Assembly (NCBI GenBank): GCA_005889475.1
Contig: VBGT01000039.1
Coordinates: 1 to 35,574, forward strand
Length of the DNA: 35,574 nt
From: Chloroflexota bacterium
GTDB taxonomy: Bacteria; Chloroflexota; Limnocylindria; Limnocylindrales; CSP1-4
Direction of reading: 5' to 3'
A model generated the notes under the pieces. The model saw only the letters and a program-made list of their open reading frames with translations. It was not told where the DNA came from and did not search any database. This document shows positions 15,357 through 25,907 of this stretch, piece after piece; the stretch's first letter is position 1; every line of letters begins with the position of its first letter. Made by a program: the position numbers and the translations under genes.

Positions 15357-15785
15357 TCAGCCCTCGAGGAGGTCCTTCAGGCGATCGAGCGCGCCCATCT
15401 CCGCGTTCATCGTCGACTGCACCGCGCCGCCCATCAGCAGCCGCTTCCAGCCCGACAGCTCGGCGTGGAGCTCGAAGGTCAACACCGTGCCGGTGCCGAT
15501 GCCCTCGAAGGTGAACGAGCCCTCGGGCCGGACCGGCCCCGCGATCGCCCGGAACGCGATCCTCTCGTTCGGCTGGAACTGGGTGATCTCGTAGTCGGCC
15601 GGGATGCGCCGCCCGCCCGGGCCCTTGACGCCCTGCGAGTACCTCGCGCCGAGGCCCTGTCCGGACACGAGGTCGACGTCGAGCACGCCCGAGCGCCAGT
15701 GCTTCGCGTTCCGGCCGTCGGCAACGAAGGTGAAGACCTCGGCGATCGGCCGGTTGATCGTGATCGTCCGCTCCGCGTTGGGCAT
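15357..15785 (-). CDS. SRPBCC (polyketide cyclase/dehydrase-like) family protein
   Basis: The 142-residue protein forms a single START/Bet v1-like domain. Seen features are the opening strand RTITINRPIAEVFTFVADGRNAKHW, the AxYSQGVKGPGGRRIPADYEITQF centre split by turns, GSFTFEGIGTGTVLTFELHAEL and the long C-terminal helix ending MGALDRLKDLLEG. Such domains bind hydrophobic ligands in a cavity; the ligand here is unknown. The ATG at 15785 is preceded by GAGGAG 8 nt upstream, which lies just past the stop of the esterase gene (29 nt gap), so it is probably the third gene of the ATP-grasp/esterase cassette. Confidence 0.88.
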   Translation of the reverse strand: MPNAERTITINRPIAEVFTFVADGRNAKHWRSGVLDVDLVSGQGLGARYSQGVKGPGGRRIPADYEITQFQPNERIAFRAIAGPVRPEGSFTFEGIGTGTVLTFELHAELSGWKRLLMGGAVQSTMNAEMGALDRLKDLLEG

Positions 15786-15814
15786 GAGGCCAGCTCCTCG
15801 CGACGTCGCCGCAG

Positions 15815-16549
15815 CTACACCCCGAGCCGATCGAGGTAGTGCGGCAACATCTTGCGCCACCACGGCCAGTCATGATTCACGTCGTCGCCCCACTCGTCGA
15901 CGAGCGCCGGGATGTCCTTGGCCGCGAGCACGTCGCGCATCGCCCGGGTGTCGGCGAGCATGTCGTCCTCCCACGCTCCGCGCCCGACGACGAAGGCGAG
16001 CTTGGCCTCGCGCAGCCGGTCGAGGTACCACGGGGCGTCGAGGTTCGGGAGATAGCGAAGGGGCGAGTTGAGGTACACGCCCTCGCTCTTGTCGTCGCCG
16101 ACGAACAGGCCGAGCTGGTACAGCCCCGAGATCGCGATCAGCCCGTCGAACGCGTCCGGGTGGCGGAACACGACGTTGGCGGCGTGGTAGCCGCCCATGC
16201 TCACGCCGGTCGCCCACGCTCGCTCCCAGCCCGTCAGGTCGCGCAGGAACGGGACGACCTCGGCGGCGAGGTACCGGTCGTAGTCGTCGTGGCGCCGGGC
16301 CCGGTCGGCAGGGCTGATCGCCTGGTTCGTCCACGACTGCCGATCGATGCTGTCGACCGAGATGATCCTGGCCCGGCCCTCGTCGATGAACCGAGCGCAG
16401 GCCTCGACCATGCCCCACGACTCGAAGTCCCAGTAGCGGCCATCCTGCGACGGGAACGCCACGACCGGCCGGCCCGCGTGGCCGTAGACCTTGAGCGCCA
16501 TGTCCTGGCCGAGCGCGTCGCTGTACCAGGATCGCTCCTCGACCTGCAC
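15815..16549 (-). CDS. Esterase-D-like alpha/beta hydrolase
   Basis: The 244-residue cytosolic hydrolase is of the putative-esterase family (PF00756). It opens with SWYSDALGQDMALKVYGHAG and PVVAFPSQDGRYWDFE, a typical N-terminus of one esterase-D subgroup. The nucleophile elbow is GVSMGGYHAANVVFRHP. The acid is probably in GAWEDDM and the catalytic His in VNHDWPWWRKMLPHYL near the C-terminus. No signal peptide is seen. The start is GTG 16549, only 4 nt after the ATP-grasp stop, so translation is likely coupled; longer upstream frames overlap the ATP-grasp gene and lack similarity. The tight pairing suggests the hydrolase acts on the product or substrate of the ligase, which is inference. Confidence 0.85.
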   Translation of the reverse strand: MQVEERSWYSDALGQDMALKVYGHAGRPVVAFPSQDGRYWDFESWGMVEACARFIDEGRARIISVDSIDRQSWTNQAISPADRARRHDDYDRYLAAEVVPFLRDLTGWERAWATGVSMGGYHAANVVFRHPDAFDGLIAISGLYQLGLFVGDDKSEGVYLNSPLRYLPNLDAPWYLDRLREAKLAFVVGRGAWEDDMLADTRAMRDVLAAKDIPALVDEWGDDVNHDWPWWRKMLPHYLDRLGV

Positions 16550-16553
16550 GTGG

Positions 16554-17717
16554 CTACGCCCGCGCCAGGATTTCGTGCGCCGCCGCGAGGAGGGGGTCCA
16601 GGCGCGGCTCGCGCATGATGTAGCCGTAGTTGCCGAGCGCGGTCGAGAACACATCGTCCACGCGCTCGTGATGGATGAGCAGCTTCGCGTACCGGCGGAG
16701 GACATCGTCGTGCGACAGCCGGTACGTTCGACCGGCCTTCCGGCCGGCCCACATCACGTACCACTTCTTCTCCGCTGGAACGCTCGTCGTGCCGTTGACC
16801 ACGACCTCCGCCCACGCCCGGTAGAAGTCGATGTCGCTCGTCCAGTTCCACATGTCGACGGTCAGGCCGCCGGGCTGGCGCATGTTCACCTCGAGCGCCG
16901 CGAGCTCGCCGTCGGGCAGCCTGAAGAACTCGAAGTGGAACGGGCGCTCGCGGACGCCGAACGCGCGCACGATGTGCCGCCCGAGCGCGTCGAGGTCGGG
17001 CGCGATCTCCCGGTCGATCCAGTAGAACATGTCTGCCCCGCGCACCGAGTCGAGCACGGTCAGCCCATAGACCAGGGACGATGCGAACACCACCTCGCCC
17101 GAGCGATCGACGAGCCCGTCGAAGCTGAGGAGCTGGCCCTCGAGGTACTCCTCGAGGATGTAGTCGATGCTCGGCCGGTCGCCGAGGAAGGCGTCGAGGT
17201 CGGTGTCGTTCTCGATCCGGTAGGTGCGCGCGGCGCCGACCCCGACGTCGGGCTTGGCGATGATCGGGTAGCCGACCTCCTCGATGAAGTGCCTGGCAAC
17301 CGGCGCGCTGACCCGGCGCACGACGCGCCCGCGCGCGACCCGCACGCCGGCGCGCTCGAACACCCGCTTCATGGCCGACTTGCGCTTGACCTTGTCGATG
17401 CCCTCGGCGTGCAGTCCCGGGATGTTGAACTCGCTGCGCAACCGGGCGTCGGTGGCCAGCCAGTACTCGTTGAGCGACTCAAGCCGGTCGATCTTGCCGT
17501 AGCGGTGGGTGTAGTACCCGACGGCTCGGGTCAGCTGGTCGATCGAGTGCAGGTCGTCGACGCGGTAGTAGTCGGTGAGGGCCGCCCGCAGCTCCGGGCG
17601 GAGCGCCTCGTAGGCGACGTCGGCGATCCCGAGCACGGTCGCGCCCGCCTCGCGCAGCCGCTGGACGTACAGGTACATCCCCGGCGGGAAGTGCGGCGAG
17701 AGGAAGACCACGTTCAC
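16554..17717 (-). CDS. ATP-grasp carboxylate ligase of unknown substrate
   Basis: The 387-residue cytosolic protein has a pre-ATP-grasp domain (about 1-105, opening VVFLSPHFPPGMYLYVQRLREAGATVLGI split after VFLSPHF) and an ATP-grasp fold. It shows the nucleotide-binding lysine in YPIIAKPDVGVGAART, the hinge in YILEEYLEGQLLSFDGLV and metal ligands in FHFEFF and ALEVNMRQPGG. The layout resembles carbamoyl-phosphate-synthase-like and amino-acid ligases that join a carboxylate to an amine via an acyl phosphate. The C-terminal 60 residues (KAGRTYRLSHDDVLRRYAKL onward) are not recognised. It is the first gene of a three-gene minus-strand unit with the esterase and SRPBCC genes. The start is GTG 17717 with CACACT 7 nt upstream. 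Confidence 0.85.
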   Translation of the reverse strand: MNVVFLSPHFPPGMYLYVQRLREAGATVLGIADVAYEALRPELRAALTDYYRVDDLHSIDQLTRAVGYYTHRYGKIDRLESLNEYWLATDARLRSEFNIPGLHAEGIDKVKRKSAMKRVFERAGVRVARGRVVRRVSAPVARHFIEEVGYPIIAKPDVGVGAARTYRIENDTDLDAFLGDRPSIDYILEEYLEGQLLSFDGLVDRSGEVVFASSLVYGLTVLDSVRGADMFYWIDREIAPDLDALGRHIVRAFGVRERPFHFEFFRLPDGELAALEVNMRQPGGLTVDMWNWTSDIDFYRAWAEVVVNGTTSVPAEKKWYVMWAGRKAGRTYRLSHDDVLRRYAKLLIHHERVDDVFSTALGNYGYIMREPRLDPLLAAAHEILARA

Positions 17718-25830: not shown

Positions 25831-25907
25831 TGGTCGGGGCGGCGGGATTTGAACCCACGACTTCATCGTCCCGAACGATGCGCGCTACCAGGCTGCGCTA
25901 CGCCCCG
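25831..25907 (-). tRNA. tRNA-Pro(CGG)
   Basis: A 77-nt cloverleaf with encoded CCA reads on the minus strand: acceptor CGGGGCG pairs with CGCCCCG, D arm GCGC/GCGC with AGCCTGGTA loop, anticodon stem CATCG/CGATG enclosing TTCGGGA (anticodon CGG), and T arm GTGGG/CCCGC with TTCAAAT. The first base is at 25907, the discriminator A at 25834. A TATCAT box lies about 30 nt upstream (minus strand). Confidence 0.97.

Follow-up and report, generated by a model that had tools for sequence, protein, structure and literature searches.

What do an ATP-grasp ligase and an esterase do side by side in a Chloroflexota genome, and does the small SRPBCC gene that follows them belong to the same unit? The three genes lie in a contig of 35,574 nt (hereafter the window, meaning the whole stretch of DNA analysed), one of the 123 contigs of a 2.64-Mb genome. 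They are arranged as follows:

17717–16554, minus strand: ATP-grasp ligase gene (GTG start, 387 aa; Pfam ATP-grasp_4, 1.5e-10)
16550–16553, minus strand: spacer of 4 nt between the ligase stop and the esterase start
16549–15815, minus strand: esterase gene (GTG start, 244 aa; Pfam Esterase PF00756, 8.7e-11)
15785–15357, minus strand: SRPBCC gene (ATG start, 142 aa; Pfam Polyketide_cyc2, 9.1e-18)

The open reading frame coordinates agree with the arrangement described in a first-pass annotation of this DNA: three minus-strand genes, with spacers of 4 nt (ligase–esterase) and 29 nt (esterase–SRPBCC). The shorter spacer is consistent with co-translation, and the esterase start coincides with a methionine in 12 of 12 aligned rows (GTG and TTG starts being read as M). 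A promoter and terminator scan, uninformative at about 70% GC, found neither. All three proteins fall below the cut-offs of the curated NCBIfam models, and none matches a PADLOC model at E 0.01, so that a known anti-phage defence system was rejected. The scanned neighbours in the window encode a DUF4153 protein, a metallophosphoesterase, a trypsin-like protease, a response regulator, a histidine kinase, a YceI-like protein, and others; given genes of these types, no biosynthetic cluster is evident, as had been noted at first pass. At gathering thresholds, Rfam matches the window only once, at a tRNA gene (25834–25907, minus strand).

The pairing of ligase and esterase extends well beyond the window. 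Among the best-scoring 80 of 402 ligase relatives from public genomes—a sample that is not random, and that partly overlaps with the loci of the class search described below—an esterase gene lies directly downstream of the ligase gene, on the same strand and within 250 nt, at 61 loci. The median spacing is 12 nt, and 37 of the 61 paired loci have a spacing of 20 nt or less. Adjacency this frequent and this close indicates that the proximity of the two genes is beyond chance: ligase and esterase are a conserved two-gene unit, though one that is not universal. The outcome named at first pass as refuting, homologues that are seldom adjacent, was thus not observed. Of the 78 loci where a partner would fit (L097 and L107 end too soon to show one), 17 lack an esterase beside the ligase, among them four of four Roseiflexus and four of four Obscuribacterales loci. 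The paired loci span at least eight phyla, by the taxa given in the sequence records: Chloroflexota, Deinococcota, Thermodesulfobacteriota, Nitrospirota, Bacteroidota, Bacillota, Synergistota, and Pseudomonadota. Named species with the pair include Meiothermus rufus, Calidithermus roseus, Desulfopila aestuarii, and Heliophilum fasciatum; plasmid records from Peptoclostridium, Pararhizobium, and Sinorhizobium also carry it, and a Massilia plasmid carries a distant ligase without an esterase. The closest named relatives of the window ligase come from Chloroflexota metagenome-assembled genomes (MAGs). The second most widespread neighbour cluster occurs at 15 of the 80 loci, at scattered offsets, and ten nearby genes scanned by Pfam are for the most part lineage-specific and have housekeeping roles (among them pseudouridine synthase, aldolase, ArgS, MnmA, and aldehyde dehydrogenase). 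A search of the open literature, with Iyer et al. 2009 outside its scope, found no description of the ligase–esterase pair.

Closer to home, a clear ligase orthologue, in some cases in pieces, is present in 16 of 177 genomes of the window's class (the window's own genome included), and the esterase adjoins it at 13 of these 16 loci. Of the other loci, L037 runs into a contig end, and L033 and L039 show no esterase. The pair also appears to have been lost as a pair. In a congener (genome G011), a 42-codon open frame lies between the DUF4153 and SRPBCC genes (locus L176, G011:C99, positions 329–457), and joins 23 codons from the start of the ligase gene, in frame, to 19 codons from the end of the esterase gene. 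The contig retains the C-terminus of the DUF4153 protein, the SRPBCC gene, and seven more genes in the order of the window; about 3.7 kb between the SRPBCC and metallophosphoesterase genes matches no open reading frame of the window. One in-frame deletion would account for the absence of both ligase and esterase, although this genome is fragmentary and the scar could be an artefact of misassembly.

The ligase itself most resembles enzymes that join free amino acids. Its AlphaFold model (pLDDT 93.2) is closest to the chains of RizA (4wd3; Z 32.3, rmsd 3.9 over 359 residues) and BL00235 (3vot; Z 31.2, rmsd 3.4 over 358 residues), with PurK-type enzymes at Z 28.5 and below, and the BacD/YwfE entries 3wnz and 3vmm at 27.5 and 26.9. 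RizA is also the best match by sequence (9.6e-23 with a profile), and in the predicted model the ATP-grasp fold covers the whole chain. The residues predicted to bind substrate and Mg/ATP, from 50 aligned rows, are:

N83-E84, K113, K155, E189, E263, E276, N278, R280

E84, K113, K155, E189, E263, E276, N278, and R280 are invariant in all 50 rows. We take the roles of these residues (Mg/ATP binding, anchoring of a carboxylate by an Arg, binding of amine and carboxylate) to be those assigned in work on BacD and BL00235; the ATP-grasp residues of the ligase are common to many ligases with other substrates. K155, E263, E276, N278, and R280 are present and aligned to the E-x-x-M-R stretch of RizA, an alignment that speaks to their presence and not to their role. 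An active-site comparison with amino-acid ligases, as envisaged in the first-pass annotation, places window residues on substrate-pocket positions of RizA: in hmmsearch and phmmer alignments, N83-E84-Y85-W86 falls on T81-E82-K83-S84 of RizA, and V160 and A162 on S156 and A158. In RizA, T81, K83, S84, S156, and A158 belong to the C-terminal substrate pocket, and their mutation alters product yields (PMC9321006). Judged by model and aligned residues, the ligase is closest to the L-amino-acid ligases RizA and BL00235.

The esterase is a hydrolase of the CE1/esterase-D type with an alpha/beta-hydrolase fold, by both Pfam (PF00756) and its model (pLDDT 96.9). The closest chain is that of a feruloyl esterase (7xrt; Z 24.7, rmsd 2.8 over 229); further matches are 4rgy, 5vol (Z 23.9), FphF (23.7), FrmB (23.6), and Ag85 entries (about 22). 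Its catalytic residues were compared among 64 esterases of the type found in the pair and 33 from a sister branch. Ser117 is present in 64 of 64 pair-type and 33 of 33 sister esterases, and His226 in 63 of 64 (with one gap) and 33 of 33. At the third position, 194, the pair-type esterases have Glu (58) or Asp (six); the sisters vary more, with Asp in 21, Glu in seven, and another residue in five. The triad is thus predicted to be intact as Ser117-Glu194-His226, where Glu194, just after the strand at 183–190, was assigned by alignment and secondary structure rather than from coordinates. The intact Ser/Asp/His triad proposed at first pass therefore holds for its serine and histidine, with the acid predicted to be Glu rather than Asp. 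Two signature residues of the pair type, G191 and W193, are each present in 64 of 64 pair-type esterases and fall in a gap in 30 of the 33 sisters.

Taking these observations together, we put at about even the chance that the ligase and esterase genes are an operon whose enzymes produce a single small compound derived from an amino acid and then process it. In the first step, the ATP-grasp enzyme would use ATP to convert a carboxylate to its activated acyl phosphate, which would then be joined to the amine of an amino-acid-like partner to give an amide or dipeptide, as the fold and aligned residues suggest. In the second step, the serine hydrolase would act on the ligase product or on its ester; hydrolysis back (i.e., turnover) is the most likely form of this step, and trimming of an ester, or release of the product, a less likely one. 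A ligase–hydrolase module acting on one small amide is suggested by (i) the conserved adjacency of the genes, (ii) their apparent joint loss, (iii) the amino-acid-ligase-like fold and residues of the ligase, and (iv) a sister branch of the hydrolase that adjoins other amidoligases (see below). The earlier proposal that ligase, hydrolase, and SRPBCC protein together serve a small amide or ester is supported on these grounds for the first two, and not supported for the third. For protein-linked modification, the other option raised at first pass, the results speak neither way. A two-gene unit kept so widely probably makes something that the cell uses, and the pair offers a small, directly testable way in to a metabolite.

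The strongest competitor, which we hold to be rather unlikely, is that the hydrolase finishes the ligase product as a tailoring enzyme (by ester removal, acyl transfer, or thioester release) instead of turning it over. It shares its fold with feruloyl esterases, S-formylglutathione hydrolases, and Ag85 proteins, which act on esters or thioesters rather than amides, and the folds matching its model include esterases, thioesterases, and acyltransferases; to our knowledge, CE1 enzymes do not typically hydrolyse amides. The position of the hydrolase gene, downstream of the ligase gene, also fits the order of such a pathway. However, the ligase persists at 17 of 78 loci without an adjacent hydrolase, which is easier to understand if the hydrolase is dispensable.

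Ligases without the esterase are also found in a sample of 400 Chloroflexota genomes, 99 of which have a match to the esterase profile at E 1e-25, and 17 a match to the ligase profile at E 1e-40. Four pair-type esterases (at least 327 bits) occur in this sample, each adjoining a ligase; the next esterase scores 269. Against the two-step reading, an esterase is adjacent to only four of the 11 strong ligase matches. Six of the seven unpaired ligases belong to a single family, and each of their six genomes has two sister esterases at other sites; beside the seventh (genome G076), the stretch ends after roughly 1 kb, and no esterase lies in that part. A ligase found without an adjacent esterase can, it follows, work without this hydrolase at its side. 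On the ligase tree, the label for presence or absence of the esterase changes about seven times (L129, the esterase-less Massilia locus, being mislabelled as paired), which points to probable repeated loss of the hydrolase, or to its gain.

The ligase gene varies in number as well. Two consecutive ligases are present at 16 of the 80 loci (again, the best 80 of 402). On the ligase tree, the entry L118_g2 is half of an interrupted ligase gene and no tandem copy. In 13 of the 16 tandem loci, mostly from Desulfobacterota, the upstream copy falls on a deep, separate branch of the ligase tree (L080, L081, L093, L095–L097, L103, L105–L107, and L115–L117). Five upstream copies that were aligned retain E84, K113, K155, E189, E263, E276, N278, and R280, and have Lys at 258. 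An acetyl-CoA hydrolase–GNAT fusion precedes the tandem ligases at L095, L107, L116, and L117. At three of the four esterase-less Obscuribacterales loci (L065, L070, and L074), a ureidoglycolate-lyase-like gene lies directly upstream of the ligase, as identified by Pfam in L074 and by similarity in the others. This gene and the acetyl-CoA hydrolase–GNAT fusion are the only suggestive ones among the neighbours scanned. The frame of the L118 ligase C-terminus continues into that of the esterase; this was set aside as evidence of a gene fusion, the ligase frame being interrupted further up.

It is also conceivable, but improbable, that the ligase tags a protein or peptide with an amino acid and the hydrolase reverses the tagging. 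Amidoligase operons with peptidases were reportedly proposed for peptide tagging in the earlier work of Iyer et al. 2009. Against such a role for the pair, no small partner gene is conserved within 800 nt: of 1364 small open reading frames (20–110 aa) within 800 nt on either side of L046–L125, the widest cluster occurs in six loci. Moreover, the two structures closest to the ligase model are ligases of free amino acids.

A three-gene cassette, with the SRPBCC protein binding the product, is very improbable. It is true that the SRPBCC gene is only 29 nt away in the window, and that in a congener (G004) a homologue also adjoins the pair, on the upstream side of the ligase. Yet this G004 locus, which entered our searches as L003, L046, and L177, is (as L046) the only one of the best 80 of 402 loci with an SRPBCC gene beside the pair. 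Within the genus, five of 15 genomes (those of the window, G004, G011, G009, and G003) carry an SRPBCC homologue; G003 and G009 do so without a matching pair, and the pair-bearing congeners G007 and G014 have no homologue at E 1e-15. In G011, the gene persists beside the deletion scar. Since the SRPBCC gene is rarely beside the pair, can be on either side of it, and is kept where the pair was lost, we judge it to be a local neighbour outside the ligase–esterase unit. Least probable of all is graspetide-type RiPP maturation with an accessory hydrolase: alpha/beta hydrolases are present in some graspetide loci (PMC8939145), but the best ligase matches are L-amino-acid ligases, and a graspetide precursor beside the ATP-grasp gene was rejected, with no small-ORF family in more than six of loci L046–L125 within 800 nt.

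Returning to the ligase–hydrolase module on a small amide, we consider the sister branch of the hydrolase, sampled at 33 loci in 31 genomes that were hand-picked from the 99 esterase-positive Chloroflexota genomes. At 22 of the 33 loci, the sister esterase adjoins, or lies near, a RimK-like ATP-grasp gene (L135–L139, L141, L144, L146, L149, L157, L158, L160, L163, L164, L166–L169, L171–L173, and L175). A circularly permuted ATP-grasp gene (CP_ATPgrasp_2) is present at 20 of these 22 loci, and a GCS2 carboxylate-amine ligase gene at 14; at L146, ligases and esterase are encoded on opposite strands. Eight of the 22 seeded the ligase models with which the rest were counted; of the 25 non-seed loci, such a ligase is present at 14 and absent from the DNA examined at 11, three of the latter (L140, L161, and L162) adjoining a contig end. 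There are two side observations. Firstly, a subtilisin-type peptidase gene lies near the sister esterase at L135, L141, L144, and L175. Secondly, in one Chloroflexota family (L130–L134), three ATP-grasp paralogues and two esterase-type genes are clustered with the gene of a conserved protein without a Pfam match; GCS2 and RimK-like genes are also present at four of these five loci, and L130 starts at a contig end.

In the esterase tree (102 rows), the pair type forms one clade with a support of 97/97, which is partly expected because the pair rows were found via the ligase and the sisters come from Chloroflexota only. The three ligase models of the sister cluster have no match at E 1e-8 in the DNA around the 80 pair loci. 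The hydrolase is the constant element, and its amide-forming ligase partner varies; in this way, the pair links a hydrolase family to amide-forming ligases. More tentatively, one hydrolase family may be the shared second half of two amide-making systems, both yielding undescribed small amino-acid amides with a dedicated turnover enzyme. If so, one system, found across at least eight phyla, would rely on a single amino-acid ligase enzyme and the other, in Chloroflexota, on a RimK-like/circularly permuted ATP-grasp/GCS2 set, and the amides could be, for example, an osmolyte, a storage compound, or a low-molecular-weight thiol.

How does the pair compare with known systems? The ligases RizA, BL00235, and BacD/YwfE match the predicted model of the window ligase over the whole length of the fold; RizA shares its E-x-x-M-R stretch, and BacD its N-E pair. 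They differ in sequence, with only 14–21% identity to the window ligase, and we know of none that is paired with an esterase. The CE1/esterase-D enzymes (feruloyl esterases, FrmB, FphF, and Ag85; PF00756) share with the window esterase its fold, the G-x-S-x-G nucleophile elbow, and the His, at 12–19% identity among the 50 structural matches listed. In the EST–RimK–CP_ATPgrasp_2–GCS2 cluster of Chloroflexota, the hydrolase is of the sister branch, from which the G191/W193 signature sets the window esterase apart, and the ligases differ from that of the pair. Finally, Iyer et al. 2009 are said to have predicted operons of one or more amide-forming ligases plus a hydrolase; by analogy, the pair would likewise combine an amide-forming ligase and a hydrolase in one operon. 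The pair is best read as a variant of this amidoligase–hydrolase operon type.
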